Positions 23,116 to 32,102 of a stretch of 32,102 nucleotides of DNA are shown here, in pieces. Positions within the stretch are counted from its first letter, which is position 1. Every line of letters starts with the position of its first letter. Made by a program: the position numbers and the translations under genes. The notes under the pieces were generated by a model. It saw nothing but the letters and a program-made list of their open reading frames with translations, was not told the DNA's origin and did not search any database. Origin of the DNA: Sandaracinus sp. (lineage in GTDB: Bacteria; Myxococcota_A; Polyangia; Polyangiales; Houyiibacteriaceae); contig PABA01000086.1 in NCBI GenBank assembly GCA_002699025.1, forward strand, positions 1 through 32,102. The letters run 5' to 3'.

Positions 23116-24630
23116 TCAGGCGAAGACGTTCGCCAGCTCCTGGGCGTCGACGCCGTCCCGGATGCCGCGGATGCGCGCGTAGGTCACGGCGGCGAGGGCC
23201 GAGAAGGCCATGGTCTGGCCGAGCTGGAGGATCCACGTGAGCACGAAGTTCACGATCTGCATGGCCATGCTCGGCTGGGCGACGGCGCCCGTGGCGTCGA
23301 AGCCCGCGCCGGCGCCGGCGGCGCCTCCGAACATGCCCACGATGCAGCTGAGCACGAAGTAGGCGGCGAAGACCGCGAGGCCCGCGAGGAAGATGGTGAG
23401 CCGGTTGCCCTCGGTGAGCTGCACGGAGCGCTGGAGCGCCTCGAAGGGGCCGACGTCCTCCATGACCGCCGCGGGGACGGAGAGGAAGAGGACGATGGCG
23501 ATGAAGATGCCGGGCGCGATGCAGGCGATGAGGCCGAGGGCCGTGGCGATGGCGACCATGAACGCCACCGGGATGACCGACCAGGCGCGGGAGAGGCCGC
23601 GGGAGAAGGCGTCGCCGACGCTCGCGTGGCGGCCGGCCATGAACTCGACGACGGTGAACATCATCACCGCCTGCGCGAGGTAGGTGAGGGTCATCGTCAC
23701 GACCGAGCTCAGGCAGGTGCCCCACCAGAACCAGGACGGGAAGAGGTCGAAGGGGCTCGAGCTCTGCATGGAGTAGGGGTCGTTCATCGACCGCTCCATG
23801 ATCTCCATCGACCAATCCTGGACCGCGAGCGTGTACCAGAGGTTGATGAGGATCGCCGGCGTCAGGCAGACGAGGCAGATGATGAAGAAGGAGCCGAGGT
23901 TGGCGGCGATGCCGCGCATGGCGGTCTGAAGGAGATCGCCGACCCGGACGACGCCGGCCGACGCCGCGAGCTCGCCCGCGCCCCAGGGGCCGCCCCCGCC
24001 GGGCGGGCCGCCGCCGTAGCCGCCGCCTCCGCCGGGCGGGCCGCCGTAGCCGCCGCCGGGCGGACCGCCTGCGGGAGGCGCGCCGAACGCGCCGCCGCCC
24101 TGACCACCGGGGGCACCGAACGCGCCGCCCTGCGGACCGCCTGCCGGAGGAGCGCCGAACGCGCCGCCTTGGCCGCCGCCGGGAGCCTGGCCGCCTGCGG
24201 GAGGCGCGCCGAACGCGCCGCCCTGGCCGCCTTGGCCACCGGGAGCCTGGCCGCCGCCCTGCGCCGGAGGAGCGCCGAACGCGCCGCCTTGGCCGCCGCC
24301 CTGAGCCGGGCCGCCAGCGGGGGGACCGCCGAACGCGCCGCCCTGGCCGCCTTGGCCGCCGGGAGCCTGGCCGCCGCCCTGCGCCGGAGGAGCGCCGAAC
24401 GCGCCGCCTTGGCCGCCGCCGGGAGCCGGGCCGCCAGCGGGGGGACCGCCGAACGCGCCGCCCTGGCCGCCGCCCTGAGCCGGGCCGCCAGCGGGGGGAC
24501 CGCCGAACGCGCCGCCCTGGCCGCCGCCCTGAGCCTGATCGTCACTGGAGCTCTGGGGCGGCTCGGCGCCCTGCGGGGCCGGCTTCCAGCCCCCGAAGCC
24601 GCCGTCGTCGCCACCGGATTCGTTCGCCAT
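23116..24630 (-). CDS. membrane protein with Gly/Gln/Pro-rich repeated N-terminus
   Basis: A 504-residue protein. Residues 1-30 are acidic/polar; residues 30-225 are low-complexity, with nine AFG(A/G)P cores separated by PAGGPAQGGGQGG-type runs, then Gly/Tyr/Pro repeats (PPGGGGGYGGGPPGG). From about residue 240 there are 5-6 membrane helices (LGSFFIICLVCLTPAILINL, VTMTLTYLAQAVMMFTVVEF, VAFMVAIATALGLIACIAPG and so on). The last 140 residues, from MEDVGPFEALQRSVQLTEGN to YARIRGIRDGVDAQELANVF, are strongly paralogous to the protein at 27298-28182. It belongs to the polytopic 'glycerophosphoryl diester phosphodiesterase membrane domain/DUF975-like' type by shape. It starts the tightly packed run to the RDD gene. 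I infer a scaffold or trafficking role only from its company. Confidence 0.85.
   Translation of the reverse strand: MANESGGDDGGFGGWKPAPQGAEPPQSSSDDQAQGGGQGGAFGGPPAGGPAQGGGQGGAFGGPPAGGPAPGGGQGGAFGAPPAQGGGQAPGGQGGQGGAFGGPPAGGPAQGGGQGGAFGAPPAQGGGQAPGGQGGQGGAFGAPPAGGQAPGGGQGGAFGAPPAGGPQGGAFGAPGGQGGGAFGAPPAGGPPGGGYGGPPGGGGGYGGGPPGGGGPWGAGELAASAGVVRVGDLLQTAMRGIAANLGSFFIICLVCLTPAILINLWYTLAVQDWSMEIMERSMNDPYSMQSSSPFDLFPSWFWWGTCLSSVVTMTLTYLAQAVMMFTVVEFMAGRHASVGDAFSRGLSRAWSVIPVAFMVAIATALGLIACIAPGIFIAIVLFLSVPAAVMEDVGPFEALQRSVQLTEGNRLTIFLAGLAVFAAYFVLSCIVGMFGGAAGAGAGFDATGAVAQPSMAMQIVNFVLTWILQLGQTMAFSALAAVTYARIRGIRDGVDAQELANVFA
24049..24540. repeat. tandem repeats coding the AFG(A/G)PP segments
   Basis: The core GAACGCGCC recurs at 24085, 24118, 24157, 24211, 24277, 24331, 24397, 24451 and 24505. 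From 24211 on the spacing alternates 54 and 66 bases and then 54 and 54, which makes a higher-order 120-base repeat; bases 24241-24300 and 24361-24420 are identical. All steps are multiples of three, so the reading frame is kept. This points to recent expansion or contraction by recombination within the coding sequence. Confidence 0.85.
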
Positions 24631-27297: not shown

Positions 27298-28182
27298 TCA
27301 GGCGAAGACCTCCGCCAGCGCCTGTGCGTTCACCCGCTCGCGGATTCCGCGGATGCGCACGTAGGCGACGGCGCCGAGGGCCGCGAGAGCCATGGACTGG
27401 AGCGCGGCGATCGCCCAGGAGATGGCGCCCTCGACGACGAGCCCGAGGGCGCTGGGCCCCTGGGGCTGGCCGGTCGCGTCGTAGGCTCCGGCGACCTCGC
27501 CACCCATGCCGACGCCGAAGGAGGTGATGATGCAGGCGAGCACGATGTTGACCAGGAGCACGGCGAGGAACGCGAGGAAGAGCGTGCCCCGATGCCCCTC
27601 CGTGAGCGCGGCGGAGCGCTTCAGCGCCTGCACGGGGCCGACGTCCTCCATCATGACGGCCGGGACCACGAGGAAGAGCACCATCGAGATGTAGAGGCCC
27701 GGGAGGAGGCAGGCGAGCGCGCCGAGGAAGACGGCGACGCCGCTCAGGATCGAGGTCAGGAGGAGCGGGCCGGCGCGCCGCGCGGCCTGACCGAGGGAGG
27801 CGCCGACGCCGGCCTGGCGACCCGCGAGGAGCTCGATCAGGACGTAGGTCATGGCGCCCTGCGCGATGTAGGTGAGGATCAGCTCCAGGAGCACGCCGCC
27901 ACAGAGGCCGCCCAGCGCGAGCACGGCCGGGAGCACGACTTCGGGGGCCTGGGGGTCGAGGGGCTCGGCCTCGGGGACGAGCGCGTCGACCGCGATGGGG
28001 AGCAGCGTGTCGAAGAGGATGGCCGGCAGGAGGCAGAGGAGGGCGAGGGCGAGGAGCGGGCCGAAGCTCGCGCCGATGATCCGCATGCTGGTGCCGAGCA
28101 GGTCGGCGGTGTCGAGCTTCGGGGAAGGCTCGGGAGCGTGCGGCTGCGGAGCGTGCGGCTGCGGAGACCGGTGTTCACTCAT
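27298..28182 (-). CDS. polytopic membrane protein, paralogue of the 23116-24630 protein
   Basis: A 294-residue protein with a short His/Pro-rich start (SEHRSPQPHAPQPHAPEPSP, encoded by a small DNA repeat at about 28128-28165) and 5-6 membrane helices. It shares with the protein at 23116-24630 the segment V-MMEDVGP-QALKRS-ALTEG (about 165-185), FDATGA/YDATGQ and the ending YVRIRGIRERVNAQALAEVF, which in the other reads YARIRGIRDGVDAQELANVF. The long Gly-rich front is lacking. The two flank the GlmS-like gene on either side, in the same direction. The ATG at 28182 is chosen as the first after the divergent promoter region; a longer frame to 28221 would run into it. Function unknown; the fold class looks like the DUF975/YciC-type membrane domains. 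Confidence 0.85.
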   Translation of the reverse strand: MSEHRSPQPHAPQPHAPEPSPKLDTADLLGTSMRIIGASFGPLLALALLCLLPAILFDTLLPIAVDALVPEAEPLDPQAPEVVLPAVLALGGLCGGVLLELILTYIAQGAMTYVLIELLAGRQAGVGASLGQAARRAGPLLLTSILSGVAVFLGALACLLPGLYISMVLFLVVPAVMMEDVGPVQALKRSAALTEGHRGTLFLAFLAVLLVNIVLACIITSFGVGMGGEVAGAYDATGQPQGPSALGLVVEGAISWAIAALQSMALAALGAVAYVRIRGIRERVNAQALAEVFA

Positions 28183-28271
28183 GATCGACCATGGCCCTAG
28201 CACGCTCCCGGTGCGAAGCACGTGAACGTCGTCCGCGCCGGCCGGGGTGGTGCTCGGAAGGCCCCGGCCCC
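28183..28271. promoter_or_regulatory. divergent promoter region
   Basis: An 89-base gap between the minus-strand membrane-protein/GlmS run and plus-strand msrB. Promoters for both directions must lie here, if the genes are not read from further away. No clear -35/-10 pairs or dyads can be named in this GC-rich stretch. Confidence 0.35.
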
Positions 28272-28679
28272 ATGATCGCGCCCATGTCCGCCGAGAAGAC
28301 CGAAGAAGAGTGGCGCCGCATCCTGACGCCGGAGCAGTACGCGATCCTGCGGGAGAAGGGCACCGAGCGGGCCTTCACCGGCGCGTACTGGGACCTGAAG
28401 AAGGACGGCACCTACGAGTGCGCGGGCTGCGGCACGCTCCTCTTCGACAGCCGGACGAAGTACGACTCCGGCTCCGGCTGGCCGAGCTTCTGGGAGCCGG
28501 TCGCGGAAGAGCGGATCCGCCTCGTCGACGACCGCACGCACGGCATGCATCGCATCGAGGCGGTCTGTGCGAATTGCGGCGGCCACCTCGGGCACGTCTT
28601 CCCCGACGGACCGAAGCCCACGGGGACGCGCTTCTGCATCAACTCGGCCTCGCTCGCCTTCACGCCGCGCGAGGAGTAG
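28272..28679 (+). CDS. msrB: MsrB, peptide-methionine (R)-S-oxide reductase
   Basis: A 135-residue thiol enzyme that reduces R-methionine sulfoxide in proteins, repairing oxidative damage. The catalytic cysteine is C122 in [11 protein letters not shown]; zinc cysteines are C50 and C53 (ECAGC) and C99 and C102 (CANC); the GSGWPSF loop (67-73), [11 protein letters not shown] (103-113) and TGTRFCINS complete the family pattern. There is no signal peptide, so it is cytosolic. I chose the ATG at 28272 ([10 protein letters not shown]); the one at 28284 is nearly as likely. GGAAGG lies 11-16 bases before the first. It converges with the large lipoprotein gene, and diverges from the membrane-protein/glmS run. 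Confidence 0.96.
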
Positions 28680-28788
28680 CCGCGCTCGACGAGCGCGCGG
28701 CGGACCGACGATGGCAGACGCGGCGCGACCATCGGCCGCGTGACCCGTGCGGCGTCGCTTCGTCGCTCGGCGCCACGGCCTCGCTCCG

Positions 28789-30987
28789 TTACGGCCGCGC
28801 GGCGAGGGCGGCGAGGGCGTCGCCGCGGGCCGCCTCGTCCGCCGCGAGCACGAAGAGGCGCACGGGGGTGGCGTTACTCAGGGGCGCCCGCAGGCGCACG
28901 CGCCGGCCGGAGACGCTCGGCCTGACCTCGGCGACGCCGCGGGGAGTGACCTCGAAGACGTCGCGCACGCCGAAGTCCGGCGGCACGCTCACCTCCACGT
29001 CGCTGGTGATCGTCGCCAGCTCCCAATGGGGCACGCTGCCCTCGGAGACGAAGGACGCGGCGCAGGCGAAGTCGTCGACGGTCGCCGTCGTGTCGTGGTT
29101 CACCACCGGCACGACGATCGCGTCGCCGGCCCGGATGGCCTCGACGAGCACGGCGCCGCTCGCCGTCGCGGCGCCGGTGGGATCGCCGACCCGCAGGCGC
29201 TCGCGGACGGCGCGCACCATCCAGTTCGCGTCGGCGATGGCGTCCCAGCGGCGCGGCGCGTGGTCCGCCTCCTCGAGCGAGGTCTGAAACCACATCAGCC
29301 CCTTCGCGCCGGCGGCGATGGCGTGGAAGGCCTGGAGCAGGATCTCCTGCGGGTCCGGCTGCACGTGGATCTCGCCGCCGATGAGCGGCCGCTCCTGGTT
29401 CCACACGCCGCTGAGGCCCTGCGCGTAGAGCCAGGTCGGCGAGGGCATGTGGTTCTCGCGCGTGTTGCGGAGGTAGTCGAAGGCGCCGTCGATGGGCGGG
29501 TGGGAGCCGAAGCGCGTGATGTGGGGCGCGCAGGCGGCGATGTAGAGGTCCATGCCCTGCACGTCGGTCATGCCCGCGAAGGCGCCGACGTTCTTGTTGG
29601 TCTTGCCGCCGTTGTAGACGGGCAGGCCCGGGTACATGGACCAGAGGCGGCGCGCGTCGTCGGCCTTCTTGGCGGGGCGGGGGATGCCGTCCTCGTCGTC
29701 GATCTCGCCGTCGGACTCGTCGCCCGTGAGGAAGCCGACGATGGCGCTCGGGTCGGTGATCGCGGTCTCGGGGCTCGGGCGCTGGAGGAAGTCGTCGCCG
29801 ACGAGGATGTTCAGCTCGGGCGTGGCCGGCGCCGTGACGTTGGCCATGGTCGCGCCGTCGAAGCCGCAGCGGCCGGAGCCGCCCCAGTACATGTAGAGGG
29901 TGTCGAAGCCGGCGCGCCGGTGGCGCTCGAAGTTGGCGTCGTTCGCGCCCGGGAAGGCGCAGTCGCTGCCGCTCGGCCAGGCCTCCACGATGAAGCGCTC
30001 GGGCAGCACGCGGCCGACGCCGACGGCGGTCGGGGCGTCGTCGAAGTCGACGGCGACGGTCCAGGCGTCGCCGGCGGCGGCGACCGAGCAGAAGGGGACG
30101 CGCAGGAGCGTCGCCTCGCCCGGGGCCAGCTCGGTCGCGCCGAGGCAGGCCTGAGCGGTGACGTCGCGGGCGTTCACGCGGAGCCGGCGGAGGGTGTGGG
30201 CGCGGCCGTCGCGGTTCTGCAGGTGGACGAGGAGCTCGGCGCGGTCGGCGTCGGTGGTGACGTAGGTGAGCGGGACCGGCGTGGTGGCGACGGGGAAGCG
30301 GCCGCGGAGCGCGTCGCCGCCGGTGGTCTCGACGACCAGCTCGGCGTCGGCGAGCCCGTCCCACTTGGCGTCGCGGGAGTGGAAGGCGACCCAGAGCGGC
30401 TCGCCGGCGACCGCCTCGCGCGGCCAGACGTGGTACCAGTCGAAGGGCGGGGGGCCCTCGCTCGGGGTGTAGATGTCCTCGGGATCGACGCCGTCGACGA
30501 GCACCCGGGTGACCGTGCCGCTGGCGGCGGCCGTGCCCGCGATCTGGAGGCGGCCGCCGACCGTCGGGGCCGTGCCTGCCTCGTCGTAGTCGGGGAGCCA
30601 GGCGTCCTTCCGGTAGCTCGCCACCAGGCCGCTCACGGCGGGGGCCGCGCAGACGTCGCCGCTCGGGGCGCAAGCCCGGACGGGCGGCACGTACCAGCCC
30701 TCGTCGTCGCCGGCGTCGGTCGGGGGAACGGCGGCGTCCCCGCTCGCGCCGGCATCGCGAGGCGCTCCGCCGTCGGGGGAGCCGCCGTCCGGGGGCGCGG
30801 CGTCGACGGCCACGGTCGCGTCCGGTGCCGTGGCGTCCGGTGTCGTGGCGTCCGGTGTCGTGGCGTCCGGTGTCGTCGCGCCGGCGTCGAGCGTGGAGGG
30901 AGGAGCTCCGCCGTCCTCGCGGTCGCCGGCGAGGTCGTCACCGCAGCCGAGGAGGAAGGCGAGCGCGAAGAGGGGGAGTGCGCGCAT
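28789..30987 (-). CDS. large lipoprotein with a TIM-barrel glycosidase-like domain
   Basis: A 732-residue surface protein. The leader MRALPLFALAFLLGC has a clean lipobox (LLGC, C15), followed by a Thr-Pro-Asp-Ala and Asp-Gly/Ala linker up to about residue 95. Residues 95-330 look like beta-sandwich domains. From about 340 the sequence follows a (beta/alpha)8 pattern: AGFDTLYMYWGG, ILVGDDFLQ, IVGFLTGDESDGEID, YPGLPVYNGGKTN, VQGMDLYIAACAPH, PTWLYAQGL, IGGEIHVQPDPQEILLQAF, AIAAGAKGLMWFQTS. The late segment (PQEI...AFHAIAAGAKGLMWF) resembles the last strands of glycoside hydrolases of the GH42/GH-A kind; D/E in TGDES and E in GGEIHV are candidate catalytic residues. A beta domain closes the protein. 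It may act on a polysaccharide or only bind one. The ATG at 30987 is preferred to GTG 30993. Confidence 0.82.
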   Translation of the reverse strand: MRALPLFALAFLLGCGDDLAGDREDGGAPPSTLDAGATTPDATTPDATTPDATAPDATVAVDAAPPDGGSPDGGAPRDAGASGDAAVPPTDAGDDEGWYVPPVRACAPSGDVCAAPAVSGLVASYRKDAWLPDYDEAGTAPTVGGRLQIAGTAAASGTVTRVLVDGVDPEDIYTPSEGPPPFDWYHVWPREAVAGEPLWVAFHSRDAKWDGLADAELVVETTGGDALRGRFPVATTPVPLTYVTTDADRAELLVHLQNRDGRAHTLRRLRVNARDVTAQACLGATELAPGEATLLRVPFCSVAAAGDAWTVAVDFDDAPTAVGVGRVLPERFIVEAWPSGSDCAFPGANDANFERHRRAGFDTLYMYWGGSGRCGFDGATMANVTAPATPELNILVGDDFLQRPSPETAITDPSAIVGFLTGDESDGEIDDEDGIPRPAKKADDARRLWSMYPGLPVYNGGKTNKNVGAFAGMTDVQGMDLYIAACAPHITRFGSHPPIDGAFDYLRNTRENHMPSPTWLYAQGLSGVWNQERPLIGGEIHVQPDPQEILLQAFHAIAAGAKGLMWFQTSLEEADHAPRRWDAIADANWMVRAVRERLRVGDPTGAATASGAVLVEAIRAGDAIVVPVVNHDTTATVDDFACAASFVSEGSVPHWELATITSDVEVSVPPDFGVRDVFEVTPRGVAEVRPSVSGRRVRLRAPLSNATPVRLFVLAADEAARGDALAALAARP
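30824..30887. repeat. 15-base tandem repeat coding TPDAT units
   Basis: GTGTCGTGGCGTCCG or close variants repeat about four times at 15-base steps, coding the lipoprotein's Thr-Thr-Pro-Asp-Ala linker on the minus strand. The step is a multiple of three, so the linker length can vary by slippage without shifting the frame. Confidence 0.75.
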
Positions 30988-31331
30988 TGGCACCGAGTGT
31001 CGGAGAACGAGCGAGCGCCGTCGCTTTCAGCTGGACGCTTGCATCCGGTTGGTGAGCGCCATCAAAGCGCGAAGCGGGCTCGCGGCGAGTTGGCGTTCCC
31101 GCGACGAGGCGCTCGGGGTGAGCGCGCGCTCGGGACCCTGGACTCCACCCGGGGCCCGATTGGCGCCGATTCGGGGACCCCGTACCCCACGTCGCGTGAA
31201 GCATTCCGTTCTTGGTGCATGTGGGGGGCGGATCTCGCCGTCCGAAGGGGTGGCACGCGGGCTGCACTGTCGAGGGGCGCACCGACGCTCTTCCCCCAAC
31301 CACCACACGCATCCTTCCAAGCTCGGTGCCG
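30988..31331. other. gene-free region upstream of the large lipoprotein
   Basis: About 340 bases. GC content is a little lower than in the genes, with several short open frames that lack the codon pattern seen elsewhere. I find no tRNA, no strong hairpin and no promoter motif that I can defend; the promoter of the lipoprotein should lie near 30990-31100. Confidence 0.5.
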
Positions 31332-31477
31332 AGCGGCCGTTCGGGCCGCTCCCCGGGGACGCCGTCACCGACGGCCTCCCCGGGGAGCTGCCCGAGCGGC
31401 GTTTTCCGCTCGCTGGCGCTCGCTAATTTGGGCTTACCAGCGGGCCCGTGGGGCCCTCGGCGCGGCCTCCGGCCGCG
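31332..31477. other. cluster of strong inverted repeats (structured RNA or DNA)
   Basis: Within 146 bases there are five hairpins or palindromes: AGCGGCC/GGCCGCT (31332-31338 with 31344-31350), TCCCCGGGGA (31350-31359), GCCGTC/GACGGC (31361-31366 with 31370-31375), CTCCCCGGGGAG (31376-31387), GAGCGG/CCGCTC (31394-31399 with 31406-31411, loop with four T), and CGCGGCC/GGCCGCG (31461-31467 with 31471-31477). This could be an intergenic structured element, a terminator block or the lead-in to the repeat array; no known RNA family is recognised. Confidence 0.55.
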
Positions 31478-31560
31478 TCACATCGGTCGGTTCTTCGACG
31501 ACACACGAAGGCGGCTCCGTGGGGCCGGGCTCTGGGGCAGAGATGGGAGCGCTCCCCTTC

Positions 31561-32102
31561 GCAGAGATGTGGCTTTGCCGCGTTCGCGGCCGAAGCGCTC
31601 TCCCGCAGAGGCGTGGCTTTGCCGCGCTCGCGGCCGGGGCGCTTCCCCTCGCAGAGGCGTGGCTTTGCCGCGTGCGCGGCCGGGGCGCTCCCCCTCGCAG
31701 CAGCGTGGCTTCGCCGCGTGCGCGGCCGGGGCGCTCCCCTCCGCAGAGGCGTGGCTTTGCCGCGTACGCGGCCGGAGGGCTCCCCTTCGCAGAGGCGTGG
31801 CTTTGCCGCGTACGCGGCCGGGGCGCTCCCCTCCGCAGAGGCGTGGCTTTGCCGCGTACGCGGCCGGAGGGCTCCCCTCCGCAGAGGCGTGGCTTTGCCG
31901 CGTACGCGGCCGGAGGGCTCCCCTTTGCAGCAGCGTGGCTTTGCCGCGTACGCGGCCGGGGCTCCCCTTTGCAGCAGCGTGGCTTTGCCGCGTACGCGGC
32001 CGGGGCGCTCCCCTCCGTAGAGGCGTGGCTTTGCCGCGTACGCGGCCGGAGGGCTCCCCTTCGCAGAGGCGTGGCTTTGCCGCGTACGCGGCCGGGGCGC
32101 TC
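31561..32102. repeat. 46-bp tandem repeat array with nested palindrome, continues past the window
   Basis: Twelve units start at 31561, 31605, 31651, 31697, 31743, 31789, 31835, 31881, 31927, 31971, 32017 and 32063. Steps are 46 bases, except 44 after the first and ninth; the last is cut by the window end. Each unit holds GGCTTTGCCGCG-nn-CGCGGCC; in units 5-12 the two central bases are TA, giving the perfect 14-base palindrome GCCGCGTACGCGGC, while units 1-4 have TT, CT, TG and TG. A partial unit is seen at about 31537-31560. There are no unique spacers, so it is not CRISPR. Frames through it are open only because no stop occurs, and a 46-base step cannot keep one frame. Confidence 0.9.

Follow-up and report, generated by a model that had tools for sequence, protein, structure and literature searches.

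Tandem units of some 46-100 bp, spread over some 40 intergenic loci, make up the MIRU of Mycobacterium tuberculosis, for which we know of no structured leader module. CRISPR arrays consist of a leader and repeats, the latter being best conserved on the leader side and decaying at the far end, while the boxB module of the BOX elements measures about 45 bp. BOX elements of S. pneumoniae and S. suis are hairpin-rich composites of boxA, tandem boxB and boxC, thought not to move on their own and to be capable of influencing genes with which they are co-transcribed (PMC3049150); the bcr repeats of the Bacillus cereus group are interspersed between genes and often transcribed in UTRs, some with a conserved structure for which a role as RNA is predicted (PMC3446304); and the REP/BIME palindromes (GTAG and CGTC super-families) have units of 20-40 bp and are possibly selfish, the GTAG type being tied to the RAYT transposase (PMC3733652).

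The array treated here lies at the right end of the window, i.e. the whole stretch of 32,102 nucleotides that was analysed, which corresponds to the full length of contig C97 in a 9.24-Mb draft genome of 238 contigs. TRF reported a 46-bp array at 31549-32102 with 12.1 copies and 89% matches, and unit decomposition yielded 12 units from 31550 to 32095, whose palindrome centres are, in order, TT, CT, TG, TG and then eight times TA. The sequence GCCGCGTACGCGGC has eight exact occurrences; with up to two mismatches it is found 12 times in the array and 18 times in the whole window, against a mean of 2.18 and a maximum of 7 in shuffles. The preliminary description had counted twelve units and read the change of centre to TA correctly (8/8 later units). 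Its 46-bp period holds overall, except for two spacings of 44, and of its limits, 31537-32102, the array stands but the start does not, as positions 31537-31549 are the end of a conserved leader and the array begins at about 31550. It was also right in letting the array run off the window and, since the window is a whole contig, the array runs off the assembly contig rather than merely the stretch chosen for analysis. Judged by sequence, this array may continue in contig C224, at the right end of the latter. The features of the locus are as follows.

28789..30993, minus strand: neighbouring gene of 734 aa, its start codon towards the leader, with a called 5' gap of 414 bp
31399..31549, plus strand: leader of about 148 bp and 3-bp junction (C97:31399-31547 has 88% identity to the consensus query)
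31442..31456, plus strand: leader hairpin P1, here GGGCCC-GTG-GGGCCC, three inner pairs of which covary
31459..31479, plus strand: leader hairpin P2, GGCGCGGCC-TCC-GGCCGCGTC, with a G.T pair constant in 42/42 leaders
31513..31526, plus strand: leader hairpin P3, GGCTC-CGTG-GGGCC, invariant and with a conserved T.G pair
31550..32095, plus strand: twelve tandem units of 44-46 bp, arms GCCGC/GCGGC kept, loop variable
31550..31592, plus strand: unit adjoining the leader, with the loop GTTC, the commonest in the genome
31732..32095, plus strand: eight units that share the local GTAC loop, a homogenised stretch of the array
32096..32102, plus strand: contig end within the array, with matching GTAC units at the right end of C224 (reversed)

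No Pfam match was obtained for the 734-aa gene, nor did any Rfam covariance model match window positions 28000-32102 at E up to 1. Elsewhere in the window, a second palindromic tandem array is found at the other contig end (76-248; GTCCTGCGGAC five times, with a 41-bp period), the 11-mer of which has 12 copies in 473,088 bases of this genome's sequence, and within a long open frame, positions 24137-24535 are occupied by degenerate repeats whose periods, of 27 to 174 bp, overlap.

The array belongs to a small dispersed composite element, of which it is the 3' part and which is made up of a leader, a fixed 3-bp junction and a variable number of units. When the 5' sides of the arrays were aligned, about 148 bp directly 5' of them proved conserved wherever the contig was long enough, which rules out an array of palindromes standing on its own. 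Pattern searches allowing two mismatches found at least 229 units (105 forward and 124 reverse) and 172 leader copies in the genome, with 0 matches to the reversed-pattern control in both cases; the unit core pattern matched seven contigs, and DNA queries matched dozens more places. In 70 stretches of this genome, i.e. the window and 69 others picked because of their search matches, there were 124 leader and 306 unit matches, the order being leader, 3 bp, units. The 78 leader-anchored arrays had 1 to 20 units each, with an identical register of the first unit in 68, a register one base longer in 6 and another one in 4. Leaders were also found in tandem, 3' of an array or, in L103 only, once inverted, and many copies sit at contig ends. 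The preliminary description had named random scatter of the motif as an objection to its reading; scattered the motif is, although not randomly, the copies being ordered leader-array sets. Some leaders (L126:3529-4117, L129:3898-4134 and L125:3930-4134) are followed by a different tail in place of the 46-bp array, and may be a second subfamily.

By analogy, BOX appears to be the nearest of the described architectures. Both elements are composite and interspersed, with a 5' module, a variable number of tandem units and predicted hairpins. The likeness is one of architecture only: the element described here is GC-rich, its leader adjoins stop codons, and it decays in a polar manner from the leader. 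We have not filed it as BOX because two defining features, the conserved 3' module (boxC) and the terminal inverted repeats, were not seen. Among the 3' flanks listed, nothing was conserved besides further leader copies, and the longest exact match between the ends of 37 chains averaged 5.92, compared with 6.07 in mismatched control pairs. For target duplications the match was 5.11 against 4.98 in the controls, a weak test given the ragged 3' end. With neither terminal inverted repeats nor target-site duplications above control, the latter with this reservation, the element was also rejected as a MITE. It shares with the bcr repeats the interspersed, intergenic occurrence and, for some of these, a conserved predicted structure, but the hosts differ, no tandem unit array is mentioned in the part of the bcr description cited above, and the element treated here is only presumed to be transcribed within a UTR. 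MIRU are similar in being intergenic and in the size of their tandem units. The resemblance to CRISPR is confined to geometry, as there are no spacers here and the copies are dispersed by the dozen.

Structure is indicated by covariation in the leader, for which we used 42 full leaders out of 45 listed, leaving out three with large gaps or inserts. The three inner pairs of P1 were changed on both sides in 19, 14 and 19 of the 42 copies and broken in none, and four pairs of P2 had two-sided changes. In total, 89 cells had two-sided changes (shuffles, 42.3; slid controls, 2 to 16), while the number of pair types was not above that of the shuffles (11 vs 11.3). The variation in P1 comprises three block alleles only and so goes back to few independent events; in 20 of the 42 copies, two positions of P2 are unpaired; and a candidate fourth helix is paired in only 73.7% of the cells. 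Two G.T pairs are constant in all 42 leaders, which suggests that the strand as drawn is the one that folds. Predicted folding energies are modest on both strands (z of -1.2 to -2.9 for the leader, -0.2 for the leader with two units) and are weak evidence for structure. A subtype was also seen in which the leader start has TTGCGC in place of TTCCGC, with a stop codon directly adjoining it in 5/5 cases (L063, L065, L085, L104 and L118). In the 231 near-full units the arms GCCGC/GCGGC are nearly invariant, while the loop varies in both letters and length, the most frequent being GTTC (58), TCC (36), TTC (28), TGTC (15) and GTAC (14); 36 units had no loop of the form sought. Eight of the GTAC loops are in the window, and two belong to full-length units at the C224 end.

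The arrays have a direction. Units are more similar within a locus than between loci (0.866 vs 0.814, or 0.689 vs 0.508 for the variable columns), in line with the homogenisation of the interior proposed in the preliminary description. The decaying edge that it placed at the left, however, points the wrong way: in 25 arrays of at least four units ending inside a contig, conservation fell from 38.4 bits in the first unit to 32.1 in the interior and 25.7 in the last (first vs last, p 1.8e-5), so that conservation is highest at the leader-side edge and lowest at the far end. The window itself fits this polarity, its edge unit having the commonest loop of the genome and its TA centres being a local variant that spread.

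Gene contexts were obtained with a simple codon-usage script rather than a standard annotator, and all of them come from loci selected for holding the element. None of the 50 arrays first examined overlapped a called gene, all being intergenic, and in 73 chains only 191 of 29,771 element bases lay inside called genes. The 5' neighbour was known in 55 of these chains, with the element in sense orientation in 41 and antisense in 14 (p 0.00036), the window's own copy belonging to the latter. The leader adjoins the stop codon of the upstream gene or supplies a new one, mostly in sense and between genes: in 33 of the 41 sense cases it starts between -25 and +21 bp from the stop codon, and in 9 of these 33 the reading frame enters the leader and stops inside it, yielding the tails SAR (5), FAR (2) and DAR (2). 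For the 26 sense cases with both neighbours known, the median gap was 4.5 bp on the 5' side and 116.5 bp on the 3' side, and 20 lay within 25 bp of the stop, where uniform placement gave 7.3 on average and at most 15 in 10,000 trials. Convergent genes flanked the element in 12/36 cases vs 24/173 (p 0.013), and divergent genes in 7/36.

Relatives lack the element at corresponding places. Of the other 32 genomes searched in the family, 9 have matches to the gene 5' of the copy in L056, which end within a few residues of where this gene ends, and 11 have matches, with similar ends, to the gene 5' of the copy in L112, in both cases without the element. A leader and unit search of these 20 orthologous loci at E 0.01 found none, which speaks for insertion at the native stop codon or just ahead of it, although exact empty sites could not be aligned, as the relatives are of other genera. 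In larger sets, the unit pattern gave a single match, with two mismatches, in 95 relatives; 182 other genomes of the order had no match to the leader pattern; and a leader covariance model gave none among the 9 candidates scored per genome in 316 other genomes of the class. Exact patterns and a capped number of candidates may miss diverged relatives. No exact match of unit or leader occurred in a wider collection of genome contigs, which may omit this genome and very near ones. A phage, plasmid or viral source was rejected, with no match in phages and plasmids (distant blastn) and none of the exact patterns in viral contigs. In the parts of the literature on myxobacterial repeats, MIRU and stop-codon insertion that were consulted, no description of this element was recognised. 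A different structured intergenic repeat is found in G010, a relative from the same family, with 15 matches in 400,000 bases (e.g. L155:4000-4153 and L155:7299-7449) and no 46-bp array 3' of it among the matches listed, so structured repeat families may turn over between genera; a sample of 229,895 bases from the relative G007 had simple repeats only.

Taken as a whole, the element is probably a composite, BOX-like, non-autonomous interspersed element that was inserted at gene 3' ends and puts hairpins into the mRNA tail. It is possible, though rather unlikely, that the copies are instead a 3'-end device of the host, kept as terminator, block to read-through or mRNA stabiliser whatever their origin. 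The adjacency to stop codons, the sense bias (41/55) and the convergent excess (p 0.013) would all suit such a device, as would covarying hairpins with strand-specific G.T pairs, but no T-tract follows the hairpins in the aligned leaders, 14/55 copies are antisense and 7/36 lie between divergent genes, all relatives tested lack the element, also at orthologous gene ends, and the tandem and inverted nesting resembles spread. A further, improbable reading would make the copies reverse transcripts of a structured RNA, produced by a retron-type or group II intron reverse transcriptase of the genome. msDNA-like repeats have reportedly been seen in the myxobacterium Nannocystis exedens, which would be a precedent (a title to this effect is among the references of PMC6868368), and an element that is structured, strand-specific and variable at one end only is compatible with this, as are the four RVT_1 loci of the genome: L142 (C10:34009-34590), L143, L144 and L145. 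One of these is beside a group II intron RNA (RF02001), and three are retron-like by our reading of the sequences; hairpin-like stretches lie upstream of the reverse transcriptase gene in L144 and L145. Against it, the structured strand is fixed at its 5' end, the opposite of ordinary target-primed copies, and neither leader nor unit was found near the four reverse transcriptases (13,046 bases; best covariance model E 0.33, best nhmmer E 0.2), so that an origin from these loci by sequence was rejected.

The remaining alternatives concern the array more than the whole element. The preliminary description had suggested sites for a segregation or nucleoid protein, or else repeated RNA hairpins. 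For the former speak the perfect 14-bp palindromes in eight units, and yet it is very improbable: genome-wide the palindrome centre is not conserved (TTC, TCC, GTTC, TGTC and others), with only the GCCGC/GCGGC arms holding, and the array makes up only the last part of a larger element, which begins with a leader and is tied to the 3' ends of genes. RNA hairpins are still plausible. REP/BIME palindromes, mobilised by a RAYT transposase, are likewise short hairpins repeated between genes and near their ends. This origin is highly improbable, since the search for Y1_Tnp (RAYT) at E 0.01 in this 95.9% complete genome gave 0 matches, with a control search positive in 6/14 known genomes, and since unit and leader exceed the 20-40 bp given for REPs in the part of the source consulted (PMC3733652). 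Even though the window's array stops at the contig end, as do many other copies, we consider a collapsed or fabricated tandem repeat at contig ends extremely improbable, as many arrays lie inside contigs with flanking genes and distinct sets of units of their own, and as the 231 near-full units comprise 219 distinct sequences.

Returning to the composite, non-autonomous element, its copies would spread by insertion at gene 3' ends via an enzyme encoded elsewhere, and would be transcribed within the 3' end of the upstream mRNA, where the hairpins may delay its decay or act against read-through. An enzyme for such spread was not found, the genome having no Y1 transposase match and the four reverse transcriptases no copy of leader or unit near them. 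The array would lengthen by local tandem duplication and decay away from the leader, with the leader and the first unit presumably forming the selected core. There is also a small chance of something more unusual, a new class of bacterial mobile element. Its insertion machinery would recognise where a coding sequence ends, by the stop codon or by the 3' end of the mRNA; the element's own stops in two frames would permit landing in the last codons, and its leader-proximal hairpin array would be built afterwards. Should the composite-element reading hold, this genome would contain well over 100 copies of an undescribed element landing almost exactly at stop codons. This would add a case of safe-site insertion to those known in bacteria and connect scattered hairpin repeats with mRNA ends. 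The element probably accounts for many of the contig breaks of this assembly, and it would offer a testable system for the growth of tandem arrays from one fixed end.
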